Shown: positions 24,189 to 35,858 of the stretch, piece after piece
How the letters are laid out: every line of letters starts with the position of its first letter
How positions within the stretch are numbered: position 1 is the first letter of the stretch
From: Fulvivirga imtechensis AK7
GTDB lineage: Bacteria; Bacteroidota; Bacteroidia; Cytophagales; Cyclobacteriaceae
Assembly: GCF_000331535.1 (NCBI RefSeq)
Contig: NZ_AMZN01000002.1
Location: 1 to 64,000 of the forward strand
Reading direction: 5' to 3'
DNA length: 64,000 nucleotides
The notes under the pieces: model-generated
Database searches by the model: none
What the model saw: the letters and a program-made list of their open reading frames with translations, nothing else
Told to the model about the DNA's origin: nothing
Program-made: the position numbers and the translations under genes

Positions 24189-25454
24189 CTACTTCACTTC
24201 CACGTTGGATCCAAGATCATCCTGTTCCACATCCTTCGTCTGCACTTTGTCTTTAAATAATAAGCCAAAGAACAACATGACCAATCCTGCAAATACACCA
24301 GGGATCAGCCAGAAGTTATGCCATTTTTCAGGTGTCAGCGCCTCTGCATCGGCCAGAAAGCTATTATATACTACCCCGGCTATCTGGGCGCCAATAAGCA
24401 TACCCACGCCATAGGTAATAAATACCAGGAATCCCTGCGCCTGCCCACGGATCTTGGCAGTCGATTTCTTATCGACATATACCTGTCCTGTGACAAAGAA
24501 GAAGTCGTAGCAGATGCCGTGAAGCACCACTCCGGTAACGATCATCCAGAAAATACTTTCGGGAGCGGCCATTGCAAACAATACATAGCGCAGCACCCAG
24601 GCGCCCATTCCGAAGAGCAACATCTTTTTAACCCCCAGGCGTACAAATAATAGCGGCATCAGCAACATGAAAATTACTTCTGATGCCTGCCCCAAAGACA
24701 TAGTGGCTGCAGGTCTCTCAAAACCAGCATAGTTAACAAATATGGGAGCAAAATTGTAGTAAGCTGCCAATGGAATGCTGATTAAAAATGAGCTGATAAT
24801 GAAGATAATGAAGGGTTTGCTTTTCAACTGATTGAAAGCATCAATTCCTAATATACTCCTTACTGAAGTCTTTTCTCCTGCAGCAGGAGGTGGTGTATGC
24901 GGTAAAGAGAAACTGTAAAGTCCCAGCAAAATACTGGAAAAGGCGGTAGTGTAAAGTGGTAATGATGTAGTATCGGGCAATCCTTCAGATACGAAATTGA
25001 CCAATACATAACTTATAAACAGGCCGGCAATTATCCAACCCAGTGTACCAAAAACACGCACCACAGGAAATTGTCTTTCCTGATCAGTAATATTATGGAA
25101 CGCCAGCGAATTGGACAGCCCTAGTGTAGGCATATAACACAGGTTATACAAAAGCAGCATGCTAATGAAAAGCGTTGGATTTTCCGTTACCTGCGGAGCA
25201 AAGAACATCACCAAACCTCCTAAGATATGGAGCGTGCCCAATACTTTTTCAGTGGCGAAATAACGATCAGCTATCATGCCCAGGAAGAAAGGTGCAATAA
25301 TAGCTGCTATGGGGTTAACAGTATATGGCCAGTGGGTGAGGTCAGCCATTCCATGAGCGGCCATGTAGTTGCCAATCGTAACGTACCAGGCACCCCAAAC
25401 GAAAAACTGTAAAAACATCATCGCGCTGAGGCGCGGAAGTATCATTTTGTTCAT
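24189..25454 (-). CDS. MFS permease of the nucleoside:H+ symporter family
   Basis: About 421 residues with twelve membrane helices. The start LPRLSAMMFLQFFVWGAWYV, the loop GMIADRYFATEKVLG and the NQLKSKPFIIFIISSFLI segment are typical of NupG/XapB-like permeases in Bacteroidota, many of which sit beside Gfo/Idh/MocA and sugar-isomerase genes and probably carry sugars or sugar-like compounds rather than nucleosides. The start ATG at 25454 (MNKMILPRL) is chosen over one two codons upstream. It is divergent from the oxidoreductase gene at 25750, and the gap holds a LacI-type operator, so import and catabolism are likely switched together. Confidence 0.85.
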   Translation of the reverse strand: MNKMILPRLSAMMFLQFFVWGAWYVTIGNYMAAHGMADLTHWPYTVNPIAAIIAPFFLGMIADRYFATEKVLGTLHILGGLVMFFAPQVTENPTLFISMLLLYNLCYMPTLGLSNSLAFHNITDQERQFPVVRVFGTLGWIIAGLFISYVLVNFVSEGLPDTTSLPLYTTAFSSILLGLYSFSLPHTPPPAAGEKTSVRSILGIDAFNQLKSKPFIIFIISSFLISIPLAAYYNFAPIFVNYAGFERPAATMSLGQASEVIFMLLMPLLFVRLGVKKMLLFGMGAWVLRYVLFAMAAPESIFWMIVTGVVLHGICYDFFFVTGQVYVDKKSTAKIRGQAQGFLVFITYGVGMLIGAQIAGVVYNSFLADAEALTPEKWHNFWLIPGVFAGLVMLFFGLLFKDKVQTKDVEQDDLGSNVEVK

Positions 25455-25629
25455 GAGCATTTTGTTTTTATTGACCTCCCGTAAATACCCCTGGTCGATT
25501 TTTAAACCTATAAGCAGCTCTCAACCAGTGAAAAAAGTCAGCAGTTTTTGCAGGATATTCCGTGAGTCATCAGGTTTTGATGAGGTATATTAACCTTTAA
25601 TTTTAAAATGTGCAAATTCAACATTGACC

Positions 25630-25749: not shown

Positions 25750-26913
25750 ATGACTAGCCAGAGAAGACTAAAAATGGGAATGGTAGGTGGTGGGATAGAT
25801 GCCTTTATAGGCGCTGTTCACCGCAAGGCCGCGGCCCTGGATCAGGAAATAGAATTGGTATGCGGCGCCTTTAGCAGCGACCCCGAAAAATCAAAAAAAA
25901 CCGGTGAAGCGCTATATCTACAGTCTGACAGAGTGTATAGTAGCTGGGAAGAAATGATCACCAAAGAAGGCCAACTGCCAGCAGGCGAGAGGATGGATTT
26001 TATTTCAATTGTCACACCAAATCATCTGCATTTTGGTCCGGCAAAGATGGCATTGGAACATGGATTTCATGTAATAGCCGATAAACCCATGTGTTTTTCT
26101 CTTTCGGAAGCGATTGAGCTAAAGCAGTTGGTAGGGAAAACCGGCCTGTTGTTTGGTTTGACACATACCTACAGCGGCTATCCCATGATCAAGGAAGCGC
26201 GTCAATGGGTGAAAGAAGGAAAACTCGGAGCTATAAGAAAAATATATGTGGAATATCCTCAAGGCTGGCTTTCCGAAAATATTGAAGCAGAGGGACAAAA
26301 GCAGGCCGCCTGGCGTACAGACCCCTCCCGCTCGGGGAAGAGTGGTTGTATGGGTGACATAGGTACTCATGCGGCTCACCTGGCTGAGTATGTTGCCGGA
26401 GCGAATATCAATAAAATATGCGCAGACCTGAATAAAGTAGTAGATGGTCGTGCTTTGGATGATGATGGCGCTGTATTCCTCAGGTTTGGTAACGGTGCTT
26501 CAGGTGTGCTTATCGCAACCCAGGTGGCGGCCGGTGAGGAAAATAACCTCAAACTCCGCATTTATGGAGAAAAAGGCGGACTGGAATGGAATCATACAGA
26601 CCCCAATAGCCTGCAGGTGAAGTGGGTGGATAAACCCAAAGATATTTTGCGAGCAGGTGTCAATAATGCCTATCTCTCGGAAGCCGCCCGGATGAATGCC
26701 AGACTACCCTCGGGGCATCCGGAGGGCTATCTGGAGGCTTTTGCTAATATCTACAGAAACTTTGCTTTCGACATCAGGGCTAAAATGGATAGCAAAACGA
26801 TAGACTATAATATCTATGATTACCCGGGGGTGGACGATGGTGTGATGGGAATGAAGTTTATCGATAAAGTAGTCGAATCTTCAGAAAAAGGCAACCAATG
26901 GGTAGAAATATAA
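25750..26913 (+). CDS. Gfo/Idh/MocA family oxidoreductase
   Basis: A 387-residue NAD(P)-dependent sugar dehydrogenase. The Rossmann start MGMVGGGIDAFIGAVHRKAA, the DKP motif at 111-113 (normally EKP, the lysine being catalytic) and GDIGTHAAHLAEYV with the catalytic histidine near 205 are present. There is no Tat or Sec signal, so it acts in the cytosol. Related enzymes oxidise or reduce C3 of glucosides; with a DUF1080 protein and TIM-barrel isomerases downstream, a role in 3-keto-sugar handling is a reasonable inference. Exact substrate unknown. First gene of a set read to the right. Confidence 0.88.
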   Translation: MTSQRRLKMGMVGGGIDAFIGAVHRKAAALDQEIELVCGAFSSDPEKSKKTGEALYLQSDRVYSSWEEMITKEGQLPAGERMDFISIVTPNHLHFGPAKMALEHGFHVIADKPMCFSLSEAIELKQLVGKTGLLFGLTHTYSGYPMIKEARQWVKEGKLGAIRKIYVEYPQGWLSENIEAEGQKQAAWRTDPSRSGKSGCMGDIGTHAAHLAEYVAGANINKICADLNKVVDGRALDDDGAVFLRFGNGASGVLIATQVAAGEENNLKLRIYGEKGGLEWNHTDPNSLQVKWVDKPKDILRAGVNNAYLSEAARMNARLPSGHPEGYLEAFANIYRNFAFDIRAKMDSKTIDYNIYDYPGVDDGVMGMKFIDKVVESSEKGNQWVEI

Positions 26914-27233: not shown

Positions 27234-28289
27234 ATGAAGACTATCAAAGGACCGGCGGTATTTCTGGCTCAATTTTTAGATGATCAACCACCTTTTAACA
27301 CACTTGATAATATTTGTAAGTGGGCCTCGCAATTGGGCTATAAGGGTGTTCAGATCCCCACATGGGATAAACGGTGCTTCGACCTGAAAAAAGCCGCTGA
27401 AAGCAAAACATATACTGATGAGATCAAGGGTACGGTAGAGCAACATGGTATGTCAGTAACGGAGCTTTCAACTCACCTGCAGGGGCAGTTGGTGGCTGTA
27501 CACCCTTCTTTTGATACTATGTTTGACACCTTCGCGCCTAAAGAGTTGCATGGTCATCCGGCTGAGCGACAGAAATGGGCCGTTGATCAGATAAAAATGG
27601 CTGCAAAAGCCAGTCAGAATCTTGGTTTAAAGGTACACGCTACTTTCCCGGGAGCGCTCGCATGGCCATTTGTTTATCCCTGGCCGCAGAGACCGGCCGG
27701 ACTGGTGGAAGAAGCTTTCAAGGAATTGGCCAGACGCTGGATGCCTATTCTGGATGTATTTGAGGAATGTGGTGTTGATCTGTGTTATGAAGTGCATGCC
27801 GGGGAAGACATTCATGATGGGGTCACCTTTGAAAGGTTTCTTGAGGCAACGGCAAATCATAATAGGGCAAAGCTTTTATTTGACCCGAGCCATTTTATTC
27901 TACAGCAGATGGATTACCTGGAATTCATAGATATTTATCATGAATACATCAGGATGTTCCATGTTAAAGATGCAGAATACAATCCCACAGGACGCAGTGG
28001 TGTTTACGGAGGATATCAGTCTTGGGCAGACAGGCCGGGCAGGTTCCGATCTTTAGGTGATGGCCAGGTCGATTTTACAGGCATCTTTAGCAAATTATCG
28101 CAGTATGGCTATGATGGATGGGCTGTGATGGAGTGGGAGTGCTGTATCAAATCACCGGAGCAGGGAGCAAGAGAAGGGGCCCCGTTTATCCAAAGCCATA
28201 TAATTGAGGTCACCAAAAAAGCCTTTGATGATTTTGCAGGAGGAGAGTCTAACGACCAACTGAATAGAAGGATACTTGGACTGAGCTGA
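27234..28289 (+). CDS. Sugar phosphate isomerase/epimerase family TIM-barrel protein
   Basis: A 351-residue xylose-isomerase-like TIM barrel (AP endonuclease 2 fold). Metal ligands are seen at the barrel ends: Glu in LCYEVHAGED, Asp-His in LLFDPSHF, His-Asp in RMFHVKDAE and Glu in WAVMEWECC. No signal peptide; cytosolic. Proteins of this group isomerise, epimerise or dehydrate sugars and keto-sugars, and many stand beside Gfo/Idh/MocA dehydrogenases. Here it follows one and precedes the DUF1080 lipoprotein by 74 bases. The substrate is not known. Confidence 0.85.
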   Translation: MKTIKGPAVFLAQFLDDQPPFNTLDNICKWASQLGYKGVQIPTWDKRCFDLKKAAESKTYTDEIKGTVEQHGMSVTELSTHLQGQLVAVHPSFDTMFDTFAPKELHGHPAERQKWAVDQIKMAAKASQNLGLKVHATFPGALAWPFVYPWPQRPAGLVEEAFKELARRWMPILDVFEECGVDLCYEVHAGEDIHDGVTFERFLEATANHNRAKLLFDPSHFILQQMDYLEFIDIYHEYIRMFHVKDAEYNPTGRSGVYGGYQSWADRPGRFRSLGDGQVDFTGIFSKLSQYGYDGWAVMEWECCIKSPEQGAREGAPFIQSHIIEVTKKAFDDFAGGESNDQLNRRILGLS

Positions 28290-28363: not shown

Positions 28364-31300
28364 ATGAAACACACACTTTTAGCTTTTATCGCACTGTTTG
28401 TTCTTTTTTCTTGTAGCAAGGAGGAGAACATTCGCGAACGCCCGAGAGACCCATGGGTATTTCGCTCGGTTCTCGATGAGCAGTCAAGGATAATAACAGT
28501 CGCCCTGCATGACGAAATGTATGTGGCTTATGATGCTCAGCATGGAGGATTATATAAAGCGTGGAAAGGAGGGGTAAATTTTGATGGAGCAGTCTACACC
28601 ACAAAGCACGGACCTCAGCCTACCAGCAAGGGTTATGCCTACTACACAAAAAAGATGGATCAACCTGCCTGGGTGTTCGTCAAAGGAGGAGAAGAAATCA
28701 TACCCGAGGTCCTTTTCAAAGGATATCAATTTAAAGAAGGCCAGGTTTACCTCAATTATGAACTGAAGGATGATCAGGGGAACAGGATCAGAGTACAGGA
28801 AAAGCCGGAATACGTCTCGCAGAAGGGTAAAAATGGTTTATCCCGATCATTTATTGTTTCAGATGTACCTGAAGGTGTAAAAGTTGGTTTTCATACAGCG
28901 CTTACCTCTATGAAAAGCGAAAGAGATTATGAAACTGACGGAGAATTTAAAGTTACCAACCAGAGCAAAGAAATGTATACCAGTGGCACCACTCATACTG
29001 TGGAGGGGCTGATGGTGCTGAATTCTGATGGCCAAACGGAACTGAAGGTATATTTCCATCCGGGTTTTGACAGGGAAGGCGCCAGGCATACCGTGGAGGA
29101 TGTGAAAGCGGCCGGGGCCGACCAGCCGGAAGGTAAAAAACTCATAGAAAACAGTGACTGTAAAACATGCCACAATGAAACCAAGAAAACGGTAGGTCCG
29201 GCATATGTCGAAATCGCCAGGAGGTATCCTAACAGTGAGGCTGTTACTAATGACCTGGCTCAGAAGATAATAGCTGGCGGTACAGGTAATTGGGGAGAAG
29301 TACCCATGACTGCTCACCCCGATCTGCAGGAGGATGATGCCAAACAGATGGTTGCGTATATTCTCTCACTTGACGGTGAGGAGCCTGAGAGCGGTGAGGC
29401 GAAAGGAGAAGGGGAAGACCTGATGCTTGGAGTAGCTCCTGTGCAACTGCAACTCACCGACAACAACCAAAACCTCAAAGAAGGAGATGAAACTTTATAC
29501 GATGGCCTCGCTGCCAATGCTTACCTTTGGAATGATTATAACCTTTCTTTCAAGGACCTGACCTCTGTTACTGCTCCGATCATGTCTGGAGCCGTTCCGG
29601 TGCTGCACTTTGATGAAGCGAGCCATATCGGAAGGGTAAGAGATAATATTTACATCGAATTCAATGGATTTGTTGACGCACCGGAAACATCCAACTATGT
29701 ATTCAGGCTGGTGTCGGATGATGGCTCGCGGCTTTATATCGAAGATAAGCTGGTGATTGATAATTTCGGTTTTCATGGCCCCGAAGCCAGGGATGGCGAA
29801 GTATATCTGCAAAAAGGACTGAATAAAATAAAGATAGAATTTTATCAGGGATTGGGAGGCGCAGCATTGTCGTTCCAGTGGGCTAAATATGGAGACAACA
29901 AGTTCTCGGTAGTGCCTTCTTCGGCTTTAAAACACAGAAAAACGATGTTTAAGGAAGTGGTGCCGTATATTGCTCCTGAAAGGTTGATGAAAAGCATACC
30001 GGGAGATCAGCGACCACTCACTTCAGTACATCCGGCTTTCGACCTGTTCCAGGCGCGGCCTGATGACTTCGAACCTAAAGTTGGGGGGATGGATTTTCTG
30101 TCAGATGGCAGAATGGTGGTGTGTACGTGGGATTCCGTTGGCCCCGTCTACATTGTTGAGGGTGTAAACACAGGAGATCCTTCAAAAATGAAAGTCAAAC
30201 GAATTGCTTCAGGACTTGCTGAACCTCTTGGATTAAAAGTAGTTGATGACGATATATATGTACTTCAGAAGCATGAGCTGACCCGGCTTATTGACCACAA
30301 TGGAGACGAGATAATAGATGAATACCGCACGGTGAGTGATGCATGGCGGGTGTCAGCCAACTTTCATGAATTTGCCTTTGGACTGGCATTTAAAGATGGT
30401 CATTTCTATGCTACACTGGCCATTGCTATCATGCCTGGTGGAGCCAGCGCTCAGCCGCAAATACCAGATCGGGGAAAGGTAGCAAAAATATCAAAAGAAG
30501 ATGGTTCTGTTGAGTTTGTTGCTCATGGTTTACGCACCCCTAACGGCATTGGAATAGGTGCGGACAGTGAAATATTTGTAGCGGATAATCAGGGTGATTG
30601 GTTGCCATCCAGCAAGATCGTCCATGTGCAGGAGGGCGCCTGGTTCGGTTCCAGAGCGGTAGACTTTGAAGGTACGGCTGATATGAAGGAGACAAAGCCG
30701 GTAGTATGGCTTCCCCAGGATGAGATCGGCAACTCTCCGAGTACCCCATCATACCTGAACGTAGGTCCGTACCAGGACCAAATGATACACGGGGAGGTCA
30801 CTCATGGAGGCATCAAAAGGGTATTCGTTGAAAAAGTGGATGGCAAATACCAGGGAGCTGTATTCAGATTTATTCAGGGCCTTGAAGCCGGCGTAAATAG
30901 AATCACCTGGGGACCTGATGGAGATCTTTATGTTGGAGGTATTGGCAATCCGGGCAACTGGCAGCATAACGATAAGCTATGGTATGGGCTGCAAAGACTA
31001 CATTACAATGGAAATTCAGTGTTTGAACCACTCGCCATAAGGGCGAAGTCTAATGGAATAGAAGTGGAGTTTACCCAGCCAATCGCACTGAATCAGGGAC
31101 AAAATATCAATGATTATCTCGTGAAGCAGTGGTATTACAAGCCAACGGAGGATTACGGTGGTCCTAAGCTGGACCTTAAGGAGCTTAGGATCAAATCTTT
31201 GAATATGTCTGATGACAGAAAGCAAATATTCCTTGAACTGGAAGGTATGAAACCTGATCATGTCGTCCACTTCAGGGTTGTCAACCCATTTGTGAGCAGT

Positions 31301-32053
31301 GAAGGTCAATCTTTATGGACCACGGAAGGTTGGTATACGATGAATGCTATCCCTGCCAATGATCCGGGGTTTGTAAATCCCACGCAGCCGGTAGTGCATA
31401 ATCAGCTAACCGTGCAGGAGAAGAAGGAAGGATGGAAGCTGCTTTTTGATGGTCAGACAACTGCCGGTTGGCGTAAGTTTAAAGAGGATAAGGTTGGGAG
31501 CGCCTGGAAGGTGGCTAACGGCACTTTATATCTTGACAATTCGAGAAAAGATGGATGGCAGGTAGTTGGTGGCGGTGATATCATCACCGATCAGGAGTAC
31601 GAAGATTATGAACTTACCTTGGAGTGGAAAGTTGAGGAGGGAGGTAATAGTGGCGTCATCTACAACGTAGTTGAAAACGATGAATATGACTATGTATGGC
31701 AAACTGGCCCGGAAATGCAAATACTAGATAATGTAAAGCATCCTGATGGAAGAATAGAAAAACACAGGGCAGGCGATCTTTACGATATGATCGAAACAAA
31801 GTTCGTGACCGTTAAGCCCGGTGGAGAGTGGAATCGCATCAGAATAGTTTCAAAAGGCGGACACGTGGAGCACTGGCAGAATGGGTATAAGGTAGTAGAA
31901 TTTCAGATGCATACCCCGGAGTGGCAAGACATGATCAGGAACAGTAAGTTTAAAGATATGCCCGGTTTTGGTCAGGCCAAAAAAGGACATATCGCCCTGC
32001 AGGATCATGGGGATAAGGTATGGTTCAGAAATATTAAGATTCGGGAATTATAG
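28364..32053 (+). CDS. Multidomain lipoprotein: cytochrome c, PA14, beta-propeller dehydrogenase-like and DUF1080 hydrolase domains
   Basis: A 1229-residue exported lipoprotein (signal ending LFVLFSC, Cys17). Domains in order: an N-terminal beta-rich part (20-250); a class I cytochrome c with heme site Cys266-x-x-Cys269-His270 and probable axial Met315; a PA14 domain (about 380-520); a six-bladed NHL/sorbosone-dehydrogenase-like propeller (about 560-885, with GLRTPNGIGIG and DGDLYVGGIGNPGNW); an Ig-like segment (885-1000); and a DUF1080 domain (about 1022-1229, starting GWKLLFDGQTTAGW). DUF1080 is the 3-keto-disaccharide hydrolase family. The layout suggests a cell-surface or periplasmic enzyme that oxidises a glycan or glycoside, passes electrons to the heme and cleaves the keto product. 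Catalysis is inferred. It lies between two isomerase genes. Confidence 0.85.
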   Translation: MKHTLLAFIALFVLFSCSKEENIRERPRDPWVFRSVLDEQSRIITVALHDEMYVAYDAQHGGLYKAWKGGVNFDGAVYTTKHGPQPTSKGYAYYTKKMDQPAWVFVKGGEEIIPEVLFKGYQFKEGQVYLNYELKDDQGNRIRVQEKPEYVSQKGKNGLSRSFIVSDVPEGVKVGFHTALTSMKSERDYETDGEFKVTNQSKEMYTSGTTHTVEGLMVLNSDGQTELKVYFHPGFDREGARHTVEDVKAAGADQPEGKKLIENSDCKTCHNETKKTVGPAYVEIARRYPNSEAVTNDLAQKIIAGGTGNWGEVPMTAHPDLQEDDAKQMVAYILSLDGEEPESGEAKGEGEDLMLGVAPVQLQLTDNNQNLKEGDETLYDGLAANAYLWNDYNLSFKDLTSVTAPIMSGAVPVLHFDEASHIGRVRDNIYIEFNGFVDAPETSNYVFRLVSDDGSRLYIEDKLVIDNFGFHGPEARDGEVYLQKGLNKIKIEFYQGLGGAALSFQWAKYGDNKFSVVPSSALKHRKTMFKEVVPYIAPERLMKSIPGDQRPLTSVHPAFDLFQARPDDFEPKVGGMDFLSDGRMVVCTWDSVGPVYIVEGVNTGDPSKMKVKRIASGLAEPLGLKVVDDDIYVLQKHELTRLIDHNGDEIIDEYRTVSDAWRVSANFHEFAFGLAFKDGHFYATLAIAIMPGGASAQPQIPDRGKVAKISKEDGSVEFVAHGLRTPNGIGIGADSEIFVADNQGDWLPSSKIVHVQEGAWFGSRAVDFEGTADMKETKPVVWLPQDEIGNSPSTPSYLNVGPYQDQMIHGEVTHGGIKRVFVEKVDGKYQGAVFRFIQGLEAGVNRITWGPDGDLYVGGIGNPGNWQHNDKLWYGLQRLHYNGNSVFEPLAIRAKSNGIEVEFTQPIALNQGQNINDYLVKQWYYKPTEDYGGPKLDLKELRIKSLNMSDDRKQIFLELEGMKPDHVVHFRVVNPFVSSEGQSLWTTEGWYTMNAIPANDPGFVNPTQPVVHNQLTVQEKKEGWKLLFDGQTTAGWRKFKEDKVGSAWKVANGTLYLDNSRKDGWQVVGGGDIITDQEYEDYELTLEWKVEEGGNSGVIYNVVENDEYDYVWQTGPEMQILDNVKHPDGRIEKHRAGDLYDMIETKFVTVKPGGEWNRIRIVSKGGHVEHWQNGYKVVEFQMHTPEWQDMIRNSKFKDMPGFGQAKKGHIALQDHGDKVWFRNIKIREL

Positions 32054-32126: not shown

Positions 32127-33002
32127 ATGAAAAAGGTACACACACGAAGAGATTTTATCAAATACAGTTCTGTTTTAGGGGCAGGGCTCATGCTAATGCC
32201 ATCATGCATGGCAGCATCAGCAAAAATGGCAACTGGTATTCAACTTTATACCCTTAGAGACCAAATGGCAAAAGATCCTTCAAATACCATAGAAAAAGTA
32301 GCTTCCATAGGATATAAAGAGGTAGAATCAGCAGGCTACAATGGACAATACTATGGGTTTTCAGCAAAGGAGTTTAAAAAAATGTTGAATGAAAATGGCC
32401 TGAAAACGCCAAGCGGACATTACCTCACCGGCAACCACGCTCCGGATCAGCAAGGCACATTGATCAACGGCTGGGAGCAGGCAGTTGACGATGCTGCCGA
32501 GGTAGGCCAGGAATATATGGTTTTAGCATACCTTTTTGATAACGAAAGAGAAACTCTGGACGACTATAAAACGCTGATAGCGCTTATTAATAAAAGTGCA
32601 GAAGCATGCAAAAGCAGGGGTGTTCAATTTTGCTATCATAACCATGCCTTTGAGTTTGAGACCATTGAAGGAGCAGTGCCCTATGACCTCCTGCTACAAG
32701 AAACAGACCCGGATCTGGTTAAAATGGAGCTGGATCTATATTGGACGGCCAAAGCAAATGTAGACCCTGTGGAACTGTTTAAGGAGAGCCCCGGACGTTA
32801 TCCGCTATGGCATGTGAAAGATATGGACCAGGCTGGTGAGTTTGCTGCGGTGGGTACGGGTACTATAGATTTCCAACGAATATTTGATCATAAGGAAGAC
32901 TCAGGATTAAAACACTTTTTCGTAGAGCAGGATCAAATCAAAGGAGATGCATATGAAACCATCTCGACCAGCTATAAAAATGTGAACAAACTTTTATCCT
33001 AA
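32127..33002 (+). CDS. Exported sugar isomerase/epimerase-like TIM-barrel protein
   Basis: A 291-residue protein with a twin-arginine export signal (THTRRDFIKYSS-type start, here HTRRDFIKYSSVLGAG, with a cysteine at LMPSC that may be lipidated). The mature part is a xylose-isomerase-like TIM barrel: FCYHNHAFEF, KMELDLYWTAKA, PLWHVKDMDQ and HFFVEQDQ supply the metal-binding residues. Tat export implies that it folds in the cytosol, perhaps with metal, and works in the periplasm, alongside the DUF1080 lipoprotein upstream. It could isomerise or eliminate across keto-sugars; substrate unknown. The next gene starts 17 bases later. Confidence 0.85.
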   Translation: MKKVHTRRDFIKYSSVLGAGLMLMPSCMAASAKMATGIQLYTLRDQMAKDPSNTIEKVASIGYKEVESAGYNGQYYGFSAKEFKKMLNENGLKTPSGHYLTGNHAPDQQGTLINGWEQAVDDAAEVGQEYMVLAYLFDNERETLDDYKTLIALINKSAEACKSRGVQFCYHNHAFEFETIEGAVPYDLLLQETDPDLVKMELDLYWTAKANVDPVELFKESPGRYPLWHVKDMDQAGEFAAVGTGTIDFQRIFDHKEDSGLKHFFVEQDQIKGDAYETISTSYKNVNKLLS

Positions 33003-33018: not shown

Positions 33019-35334
33019 ATGAGATATATCCTGCCGATGGTCATTTCGGCCCTTTCGCTGGTTGGCTATAGTCATGCTCAAAAGCCTGAGCAGGTGATCC
33101 GTGGCTATGTTTACGATCAGGTTTCAAAGACTCCCATTGAAGGTGTTGAGGTATATCTGCAAAATACGGACCCTGCAAAGGGCACCAGCACAGATGGCAA
33201 CGGGGAATTTATCCTGCAGCAGGTGCCGGTAGGACGCTATGTCATCAGCTTTAGACATATAGGATACCGAACCCACCATGAGGACATTATTGTAGAAGCA
33301 GGCAGGCCTCTTGAGTTGGAAATTACATTACCCATCTCTTACAATGAGCTGGAGGAAATAACAATAACAAGCAAGCCATTTGTCACTCATGCGGATCAAG
33401 TAGGTAAACGGAGCATAACTATAGAGCAAGCCCGCAGGTTTGCAGCCAATTATTTCGATCCGGCCAGGGTAATGCTCAGTTTTCCTGGAGTAGTACCCCA
33501 AAATGACCAGAATAATAACATTATAGTAAATGGAAAGTCGCCTAATGCGCTTTTATGGCGGGTAGAGGGGATGGATGTCCTTAGCCCCAATCACTTGTCT
33601 AATGCTGGTACTTTAAGCGACCGCCCAACTCAAAATGGTGGTGGTGTTAATTTACTCAGTACTCAAATGCTTGGTCGTACCAGTTTTATTACAGCGCCTT
33701 TTGGCACTTCGTATGGCAACGTTCTGTCCGGAGTGATGGACATGAATTTTCGCCCTGGAAATAAACAAGAGCGGCATTATGTAGCTCAGGCGAGTCTTAT
33801 TGGGCTTGACTTTGCTGCGGAAGGTCCAATAAAACGAGACAGATCCTCCTTTTTAATGAATTACAGATACTCTACAGTGGGTCTGTTGAGCAAACTGGGA
33901 GTCGATTTCGGAGGTGAAGAAATTAATTTTCAAGACCTTTCATTTTACCTGACCTTTGACCAAAAAGGTGGTGGCAGGCTGTCATTTTTCACCTATGGAG
34001 GAGATTCAAACAATGATTTTGGTGGGGTGAACGATCCGAAGGACTGGGAGTACGATAAGGACAGTACACAAGTTGATTTTTCACTGCGATCAGCCGCTTT
34101 CGGAGTCAATGAGGTATTGCCTTTGAATAGCTGGTCGTCATTGATGATAGGTGCGGTTGTTTCCATAAGTGAATCTGCCAGAAAATCGGCCCGAATGAGT
34201 AGATCGGGAATATTAACTGCGGCAGAGAATTATAGGTCCGAAATGAAAATGATATCAGGAAGAATTGTATATCATGGACGAATAACTGCTTCTACACAAT
34301 TGATCACCGGTGTTATGATCAACTATACTAACGATGAGCTCGTAGCGGCAGAATGGCACACAGGTCGTGGTGAATTACTCAGCGGCTCGGGAAGTGGCCT
34401 GTTGTGGCAGCCTTACATGGAGGTGAGCGCCTGGTTGGGTAACAGATGGAACTTTGAAGGAGGCGCCAGATACATGCACTATTCTTTCAATGATACCTTT
34501 GCATTATTACCTTCAGTCCGCGTCAAATATAATGTTGATGCAAAAAATCTGCTCAGTCTTGGTTACGAGCATCAGGCCCAGAAGCAATCATCAGAGGTAT
34601 ATTTATCAGATAACAATAAACGACTGGAAATGAGTAAACTGCGCCATGTGAGCCTGGGATATAACCGCATATTTGCAAACGCAATGCTTAGCTCCAGGTT
34701 GTTTTACGAAAAACTATACGATGTGCCGGTGAGTGTAGTCAGCAGTTCTTTTTCAGCTATCAACCGCTTAAATGAATATGTGACAGAGCCCTTAAAGAGT
34801 GATGGTACCGGAGAGGTCTATGGGGTCAACTTATCCTATGAAATGCCGATGAGTAATGGGCTATACTACATAGCGAGCGCTTCACTGTTTGAATCTACGT
34901 ATGCCGGTAGCGACGGCATTAAAAGGGATTCGCGTTTCAATAATAACTATAGCCTGAGCATTACTGCCGGAAAGGAATTCATAAAAGAAAAGGATCAGGC
35001 AGTTCGTATTACAGGAGTTAATACGCGTGTTTTTTATGCCGGTGGGTTAAAATATACCCCTGTCTCCGGACAATTGTCTGAGGCTGCCGGGCGTACCGTT
35101 TATGAAGAAAGCATAGCATTTTCAAAGGCGTTGGGAGATTACTTCCGGGTAGACTTTCGCTTAAGTCTCAGGAAGGAGAAGCCTGCCTATACCCGGATAT
35201 TCGCAATAGATATACAAAACATGGTCTCAATAGAAAATGATGGGTATGAATACTATGATTTCAGGAAAGGGAAGGTGGTAATGAAAAAGCAACTGGGAAT
35301 TATTCCTATTTTAGTATACAGAGTAGAGTTCTAA
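33019..35334 (+). CDS. TonB-dependent receptor with carboxypeptidase-like domain
   Basis: A 771-residue outer-membrane receptor. Signal peptide to SHAQ near residue 21; a carboxypeptidase-regulatory-like domain at 25-110 (GYVYDQVSKTPIEGVEVYLQ); a plug domain from about 120 (PGVVPQNDQNNNIIVNGKSP); and a 22-strand barrel to the end. It lacks the SusC-specific length and has no SusD partner, so it belongs to the general TonB group. It closes the sugar locus and is probably co-transcribed with the Tat isomerase gene 17 bases upstream; it may import the products or the substrate glycoside. Ligand not known. Confidence 0.88.
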   Translation: MRYILPMVISALSLVGYSHAQKPEQVIRGYVYDQVSKTPIEGVEVYLQNTDPAKGTSTDGNGEFILQQVPVGRYVISFRHIGYRTHHEDIIVEAGRPLELEITLPISYNELEEITITSKPFVTHADQVGKRSITIEQARRFAANYFDPARVMLSFPGVVPQNDQNNNIIVNGKSPNALLWRVEGMDVLSPNHLSNAGTLSDRPTQNGGGVNLLSTQMLGRTSFITAPFGTSYGNVLSGVMDMNFRPGNKQERHYVAQASLIGLDFAAEGPIKRDRSSFLMNYRYSTVGLLSKLGVDFGGEEINFQDLSFYLTFDQKGGGRLSFFTYGGDSNNDFGGVNDPKDWEYDKDSTQVDFSLRSAAFGVNEVLPLNSWSSLMIGAVVSISESARKSARMSRSGILTAAENYRSEMKMISGRIVYHGRITASTQLITGVMINYTNDELVAAEWHTGRGELLSGSGSGLLWQPYMEVSAWLGNRWNFEGGARYMHYSFNDTFALLPSVRVKYNVDAKNLLSLGYEHQAQKQSSEVYLSDNNKRLEMSKLRHVSLGYNRIFANAMLSSRLFYEKLYDVPVSVVSSSFSAINRLNEYVTEPLKSDGTGEVYGVNLSYEMPMSNGLYYIASASLFESTYAGSDGIKRDSRFNNNYSLSITAGKEFIKEKDQAVRITGVNTRVFYAGGLKYTPVSGQLSEAAGRTVYEESIAFSKALGDYFRVDFRLSLRKEKPAYTRIFAIDIQNMVSIENDGYEYYDFRKGKVVMKKQLGIIPILVYRVEF

Positions 35335-35474: not shown

Positions 35475-35858
35475 ATGAAAATTATTAGTGTAGTACTTGC
35501 GGTCTTATTTATAGCTTTTGCCGCATTGCAATACAACGACCCTGACCCGCTGCTGTGGATGATCGTGTATGGCTATGTAGCGCTAATACCGATATTATAC
35601 CTGATGAAAATATATCCGGTAAAAACTATTCTGTTTTCGATAATAGTGCTGGCAATATTTAGCTGTTTTTATATTCCAGGAGTAATAGACTGGCTACGAT
35701 ATGGAACCGTGGGTGAAATAACTCAGGAAATGAAGGCTAAAAAGCCCTACATTGAAGAGAGTAGAGAGTTTCTTGGTCTGATGATAGCCTTAGCAAGCTT
35801 GTTTTTCTACTATATAAAAGAGAAAAGAATGGCAGCCGGTATTCGTGGAAATGAATAG
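35475..35858 (+). CDS. TMEM220-like small membrane protein
   Basis: A 127-residue protein with four hydrophobic segments (residues 3-20, 27-46, 52-72 and 100-116). The opening FAALQYNDPDPLLWM is the hallmark of the TMEM220 family, found in bacteria and animals, of unknown function. It has no link by sequence to the sugar genes upstream other than a shared leader. The ATG is immediately preceded by the conserved CTAAAAATATAC leader. Confidence 0.78.
   Translation: MKIISVVLAVLFIAFAALQYNDPDPLLWMIVYGYVALIPILYLMKIYPVKTILFSIIVLAIFSCFYIPGVIDWLRYGTVGEITQEMKAKKPYIEESREFLGLMIALASLFFYYIKEKRMAAGIRGNE

Follow-up and report, generated by a model that had tools for sequence, protein, structure and literature searches.

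The stretch of DNA analysed here, the window, comprises 64,000 nucleotides of contig NZ_AMZN01000002.1 (C2) of Fulvivirga imtechensis AK7. It harbors an open reading frame starting with ATG (28364..32053, + strand, as are all parts of the protein given below), which specifies a lipoprotein of 1229 residues combining a cytochrome c, a PA14 domain, a propeller and a 3-keto-disaccharide hydrolase domain. An initial annotation, made from the sequence alone, had proposed such a protein, and its length, lipoprotein nature and domain order were verified by Pfam searches and by comparisons with homologues. The list of domains turned out to be incomplete. Besides the four parts named, which are all present, two conserved regions had been overlooked, one at the N-terminus and one behind the propeller.

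The protein begins with a signal peptide (28364..28414) containing the lipobox LFSC with Cys17; a loose lipobox pattern occurs within the first 60 residues of 40 out of 45 heme-bearing homologues. The N-terminal domain, residues 18-245 approximately (28415..29098), was recognized by conservation, 34 of 228 positions being invariant among 20 homologues, and the Pfam scan gave no family over cut-off for it. It is followed by the cytochrome c domain (residues 256-336; 29129..29371), which matches Cytochrom_C (PF00034) with an E value of 8.9e-8 and 33.8 bits against a cut-off of 21.3 bits. The heme motif C266-KT-C269-H270 (29159..29173) and Met315 (29306..29308), the probable sixth heme ligand, are found as annotated initially and are retained without exception in the 45 heme-bearing homologues. 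With a CxxCH motif, a distal Met and PF00034 over cut-off, the domain belongs to the class I cytochromes c, and c551/c552 were its nearest structures in comparisons to the PDB. Next come the PA14 domain (PF07691; residues 405-515; 29576..29908; E value 7e-15, 55.5 versus 24 bits), the propeller (residues about 540-890; 29981..31033) and the second overlooked region, a beta domain of residues 891-1008 approximately (31034..31387), which is a conserved unit in homologues.

The C-terminal part (residues 1023-1227; 31430..32044) matches 3keto-disac_hyd (PF06439, DUF1080) with an E value of 4.7e-50, 170.7 bits compared to a curated cut-off of 26.8 bits. In alignments with the solved relatives 4jqt, 3hbk, 3nmb, 4hxc, and 8v31, the conserved stretches common to these proteins are retained, and 24 positions are invariant across 30 fusions. 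This part might be a carbohydrate-binding domain or an ordinary glycosidase not acting on 3-keto-glycosides, considering that its model overlaps CBM66, the two designations overlapping in the available text of PMC5673643, that THTE_1561 is cited as an endo-xanthanase/lichenase in the accessible portion of PMC9007349, and that many conserved residues are missing from this part of the copy L045. In view of the close match to PF06439 and its solved relatives and of a gene context of the 3-keto type, this appears very improbable. The copy mentioned, L045:140-3790, is the second one in the genome of L044 and is perhaps binding-only.

An artefact of assembly or read-through is ruled out by 34 four-part homologues and by two named Fulvivirga genomes; the homologues of Fulvivirga marina and F. 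kasyanovii share 77 and 79% identity, respectively, over residues 1-1229. The fusion is real and conserved. While matches at E <= 1e-20 were detected in 254 of 295 genomes of the same GTDB family, many of them by way of DUF1080 or the propeller alone, the full-length protein is present in at least 30 of these genomes, a lower bound because two candidates were scored per genome. Long partial matches were obtained in eight more genomes of the family (G046, G060, G081, G119, G145, G189, G233, G244), and most of these seem truncated by the end of a contig. When 395 genomes were drawn from across the phylum, matches at E <= 1e-70 were obtained in 25, revealing full-length fusions outside the family in five genomes (G307, G328, and G422 of f19; G357 and G448 of f8) and a form ending before DUF1080 in four (G421, G425, G522, G542). 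The order to which G542 belongs, with 114 genomes, adds four-part fusions from three f56 genomes (G692, G695, G696), so that the fusion occurs in three other families. Literature searches for the four-part fusion or its terms yielded no description of it.

An alignment of 47 sequences was set up, consisting of 34 four-part proteins, five lacking DUF1080 (L082-L085, L104), two lacking the cytochrome c (L086, L103), and six core-only forms (L046-L051), which are made up of the N-terminal domain, cytochrome c and propeller and lack PA14 and DUF1080. Since these three domains persist without the other two at six loci, heme and propeller constitute the more constant pair. By Pfam, the neighbours of the core-only gene L051 specify sulfatases, a sulfatase-modifying-factor-like (FGE-like) protein and an enolase-like protein; the neighbours at the other five core-only loci were compared solely by BLAST with the proteins of the window. 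The sulfatase cluster of L051 hints at sulfated glycans for the core protein.

The propeller had been correctly noted, and its kinship with the GSDH family (PF07995) emerged as remote homology from profile comparisons, while family models matched below cut-off only: DUF7133 on residues 608-745 with 20.8 instead of 27 bits, TIGR02604 with 31.1 instead of 122.2 bits, and ScyE and SinM likewise. In the Pfam scan (E up to 1), PF07995 itself gave no match on the fusion. When the 47 propellers were compared with eight GSDH sequences by hhalign, a probability of 95.5 and a score of 68.9 over 292 columns were obtained, whereas 30 column-shuffled profiles scored at most 21.6. Comparison with one TIGR02604-type protein (L043:3466-7026) gave a probability of 96.1. 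Searched as a profile against the PDB, the propeller retrieved designed Pizza propellers, Brat, other NHL-type propellers and chance antibody and PDZ entries, and no GSDH. Arg724 (30533..30535) is placed on the Arg of the GSDH motif GxRNP in the hhalign alignments, the next residue being Thr725 where GSDH has Asn. His668 (30365..30367) lies at the same distance from a downstream DG-x-[LFI]-Y as does the conserved His in GSDH proteins; the ungapped pattern His-x9-Asp-Gly-x-[L/F/I]-Tyr is seen by eye in GSDH, L043 and the fusion, and a looser spacing, H-x9-...-F-[YF], in 45 of 45 heme-bearing homologues. The correspondence of His668 is thus derived from spacing judged by eye and not from the hhalign alignment. 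By these comparisons the propeller is a distant, remotely homologous relative of the GSDH fold in which a His and an Arg are retained at GSDH-conserved positions, residues to which a catalytic role is ascribed in GSDH, also in the available text of PMC4133262.

Among 20 full-length homologues, 142 of 346 positions are invariant in the propeller, 27 of 95 in the cytochrome c, 50 of 221 in DUF1080, and 15 of 130 in PA14, so that conservation among the named domains is highest in the propeller. Like the heme ligands and Met315, His556 and His668 are kept in all 45 heme-bearing members. Arg724 is kept in 44 (Lys in L045), and His754, His809, and His814 in 40, 40, and 41, respectively. The two members without cytochrome c, L086:3431-6184 and L103:5406-8117, carry Asp and Thr at the position of His668, Gln in both cases at Arg724, Leu and Phe at His754, Tyr and Val at His809, and Ala and Asn at His814. 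No clear lipobox was seen in these two proteins, and their genes adjoin genes of Gfo/Idh and SIS1-like proteins. The loss of these residues alongside the heme is consistent with a cooperation of the heme with a pocket in the propeller.

Several genes next to the fusion have recurrent counterparts. Upstream are located genes for a major facilitator superfamily (MFS) transporter (Nuc_H_symport; 24189..25460, -), which adjoins the fusion in several relatives, a Gfo/Idh/MocA oxidoreductase without signal peptide (25750..26913, +), a candidate 3-keto-sugar reductase, and an AP_endonuc_2 TIM-barrel protein without signal peptide, designated SIS1 (27234..28289, +). Downstream follow genes for another AP_endonuc_2 protein with a signal resembling that for twin-arginine translocation (32127..33002, +; models for this signal below cut-off), a CarboxypepD_reg protein, receptor-like by size and context (33019..35334, +), and a small membrane protein of about 120 residues (35475..35858, +), which recurs in the clusters of L032, L035, L036, L039, L041, L086, and L103. 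All but the last were assigned by Pfam, the oxidoreductase and SIS1 also by synteny. Within the genus, and likewise in several genera beyond it, most of these genes recur next to the fusion. In the available text of PMC10628242, an Agrobacterium operon is described that specifies a TIM-barrel 3-keto-glycoside eliminase, a hydratase making 3-keto-glucose, and a Gfo oxidoreductase reducing 3-keto-glucose to glucose. By analogy to this operon, a role of the fusion's neighbours in 3-keto-sugar conversion is plausible.

Relatives without the fusion were inspected for separate genes. SIS1 relatives at E <= 1e-110 are present in 216 of 290 genomes of the family, and 20 SIS1 loci were picked by hand from genomes without a full-length fusion match and evaluated by tblastn. 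DUF1080 was detected at 15 of these loci, a separate small cytochrome c at 12, and both at ten; three loci (L121-L123) contain neither. The propeller was not matched at any of the 20, and none of the 15 DUF1080 genes is chained to it. A LacA-type GMC flavoprotein is encoded in the stretch at seven loci, six times with 76-79% identity to the GMC of the own genome and once, in L126, with 55%. A GSDH protein with ThuA and/or cytochrome c is found at six loci, and either GMC or GSDH at 13 taken together. The ten loci with both cytochrome c and DUF1080 include six with the GMC, three with a ThuA-GSDH-cytochrome c protein, and one (L115) with neither. From these counts, the fusion stands where many of the hand-picked relatives keep cytochrome c and DUF1080 apart. 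A separate small cytochrome c gene is also found at the fusion loci L035 and L036.

These arrangements are reminiscent of Caulobacter crescentus, for which the accessible part of PMC9007349 describes the lactose 3-dehydrogenase LacABC and the DUF1080 hydrolase CCNA_01705 in a cluster with a transporter, two epimerases and a reductase. Split loci with GMC, cytochrome c, DUF1080, transporter, epimerase-like and Gfo/Idh genes resemble these lactose-use genes. The cluster of the fusion, too, brings together a transporter, epimerase-like proteins, a reductase and DUF1080, matched by gene kind and not by sequence, and both systems would join periplasmic glycoside oxidation to a PF06439 protein, which that text proposes as hydrolase. 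Unlike in Caulobacter, where the genes are separate, cytochrome c, propeller, PA14 and hydrolase form one lipoprotein, and no LacA-type GMC is specified in the cluster, the LacA-like GMC of F. imtechensis being located on contig C73. At the split loci, the dehydrogenase encoded beside DUF1080 is of the GMC flavoprotein or of the GSDH type.

The reading we favour, with a chance put just short of even, is that the lipoprotein represents a one-chain version, located in the cell envelope, of the known oxidise-then-cleave 3-keto-glycoside system, with the propeller as the likely dehydrogenase. PA14, possibly together with the N-terminal domain, would hold the glycoside, and the GSDH/TIGR02604-type propeller would dehydrogenate it, with C3 as the most likely position and His668 acting as base. 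The fused cytochrome c would accept the electrons and hand them to the respiratory chain, and the C-terminal 3-keto-glycoside hydrolase would cleave the oxidised product. The MFS transporter, the two AP_endonuc_2 proteins and the Gfo/Idh oxidoreductase could then serve in uptake of the 3-keto sugar and its conversion to an ordinary hexose. We infer that the propeller is catalytic and that C3 is the position oxidised, and likewise which cofactor and substrate take part, in which order the steps proceed and what the neighbouring genes do; the domains, the conserved residues, the cluster and the separate-gene counterparts in relatives can be read from the sequences. A more specific proposal is put forward tentatively, being somewhat less probable: within the TIGR02604/GSDH superfamily, the propeller would be a new sugar dehydrogenase, cytochrome-linked and specific for C3, and the lipoprotein would be a complete one-chain oxidative glycosidase.

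A number of observations weigh against the propeller acting in this way. In a comparison of narrow profiles with five GSDH proteins, hhalign gave a probability of 1.3, and only broader profiles matched; against the GSDH profile, it places a gap at His668. The AlphaFold model of the propeller is of low confidence (pLDDT 35.9, pTM 0.26, with three sequences). The residue losses in L086 and L103 count as one event, since common gene order and 42% identity place the two in a single clade. No nearby DUF1080 was detected at any of the five loci of variants lacking this domain (tblastn at E <= 1e-8 in the stretch fetched). Copies of the fusion also occur outside the cluster (L034, L037, L042, L043, L087-L089). 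Among the residues binding pyrroloquinoline quinone (PQQ), only His and Arg can be placed on the propeller, and a search that had no positive control gave no PqqE match over cut-off in F. imtechensis or in any of the 35 fusion-bearing genomes. According to the portion of PMC4133262 available, the sugar dehydrogenase CcSDH of Coprinopsis cinerea keeps the catalytic His, lacks several PQQ residues and is nevertheless PQQ-dependent, so that the lack of such residues does not decide for or against PQQ in the fusion.

Other potential oxidases were surveyed in these 35 genomes at E <= 1e-30, GSDH matches being counted regardless of cytochrome c. A LacA-like GMC is missing in five genomes (G036, G112, G089, which is 82% complete, G109, and G188) and a GSDH protein of the L032 type in five others (G000, G275, G253, G262, G285), while G016 has a GMC match of 38% only. 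None lacks both, and the idea that in some fusion-bearing genomes no other dehydrogenase is present, leaving the propeller as the only possible oxidase, is unsupported. In the own genome, GMC matches are located on C73, C21, and C6 and none on C2; the LacA-like one on C73 is unlinked to the fusion and lies beside genes for a Gluconate_2-dh3 protein and an AP_endonuc_2 protein. Four other PF07995 places exist in this genome, again none on C2. In L032, L034, L035, L038, and L040, a GSDH-PKD-cytochrome c-CBM6 protein even adjoins the fusion, a layout determined by Pfam for L032, L035, and L038 and by alignment only for L034 and L040; ThuA is also part of it in L032, L034, and L035, and is not in L038 and L040. 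The oxidise-then-cleave route proposed initially is partly supported: the signature residues are present and the gene context fits sugar oxidation coupled to 3-keto-glycoside cleavage, but the propeller need not be the oxidase, another candidate being available in each of the 35 genomes. It could instead serve as a platform for structure or binding, or contribute little to catalysis, with the fusion giving cytochrome c and hydrolase to a separate dehydrogenase, the GMC on C73 or, in relatives, the neighbouring GSDH-cytochrome c protein. The six fusion-less loci pairing a small cytochrome c and DUF1080 with a LacA-like GMC agree with this, as do the unplaced PQQ ligands and the PqqE result. We nevertheless consider it unlikely, although it is the strongest of the alternatives. 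No other named domain is conserved as strongly as the propeller, its His and Arg are kept wherever heme is present, with one exception for Arg, and altered where it is missing, and its combination with N-terminal domain and cytochrome c persists without DUF1080, in L051 within a sulfatase cluster. Co-occurrence is weak evidence that neither proves nor excludes catalysis by the propeller, since only about 0.7 genomes without both would be expected if each were lost independently in five of 35.

The position oxidised has to be considered as well. Most GSDH-fold quinoproteins that have been characterised dehydrogenate aldoses at C1, which also counts against the reading favoured here. Together with the hhalign homology to GSDH, it raises the alternative that the propeller is a classical enzyme of this kind, oxidising C1 of a sugar, for instance one released by the hydrolase, to the lactone, C3 oxidation being left to LacA or another enzyme. 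CcSDH, in which a cytochrome, a GSDH-like domain and CBM1 form one chain, oxidises free sugars as far as described in the text of PMC4133262 at hand. On the other side, the cluster genes resemble a set for handling 3-keto sugars, a Pfam scan limited to six neighbouring genes in the window returned no lactonase, and the one-contig genome G036 contains the fusion without a LacA-like GMC at the threshold used, though with a GSDH-cytochrome c neighbour. Oxidation at C1 is regarded as rather improbable, slightly more so than a platform function.

For a propeller oxidising glycosides on the same chain as heme and hydrolase, partial parallels are available. The secreted CcSDH (AA8 cytochrome b, GSDH-like PQQ domain, CBM1) likewise unites a cytochrome, a GSDH-like domain with conserved His and a glycan-binding part; from what the accessible text of PMC4133262 reports, it differs in being fungal, in its cytochrome b and CBM1, in its free-sugar substrates and in having no 3-keto hydrolase. 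The ThuA-GSDH-PKD-cytochrome c-CBM6 neighbours and their counterparts without ThuA also combine a GSDH propeller, a cytochrome c and a carbohydrate-binding module, but match PF07995 strongly, have no DUF1080, and carry CBM6 in place of PA14. TIGR02604/DUF7133 proteins (PVC-type heme-binding CxxCH proteins) share a propeller of that type with cytochrome c; compared to them, the fusion scores below cut-off, lacks HEAT repeats, and has its cytochrome ahead of the propeller.

DUF1080 hydrolases need a 3-keto substrate, and the dehydrogenase supplying it is known in few systems, as far as can be told from the part of PMC9007349 available. A hydrolase fused to heme and a GSDH-fold propeller, where some relatives have separate genes, names a candidate for this dehydrogenase that is testable with one purified protein, and gives a first starting point for work on the function of TIGR02604-like propellers. 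If the propeller is indeed C3-specific, an uncharacterised family of heme-bearing propellers would obtain a function.

Four sequences of the genus (L006-L009) have C-[ST]-K-E-E after the acylated Cys, which is not seen in L010 and L011 of the same genus or in other genera. The motif resembles the surface-export signal of Bacteroidota lipoproteins; if the protein is surface-located, the heme would need a carrier to reach the respiratory chain. The 1359-residue open reading frame L105:1950-6026, reaching the contig end, has about 200 extra residues between cytochrome c and PA14. The own genome also contains a Gfo/Idh and DUF1080 pair on C6, and the LacA-like GMC cluster and this pair (L062:7703-10862 and L056:15016-17355) are further candidate 3-keto-glycoside modules. 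The ThuA-GSDH-PKD-cytochrome c-CBM6 proteins (L032:11715-15080, L034:4110-7478, L035:4765-8070) may represent a second multi-domain oxidase design.

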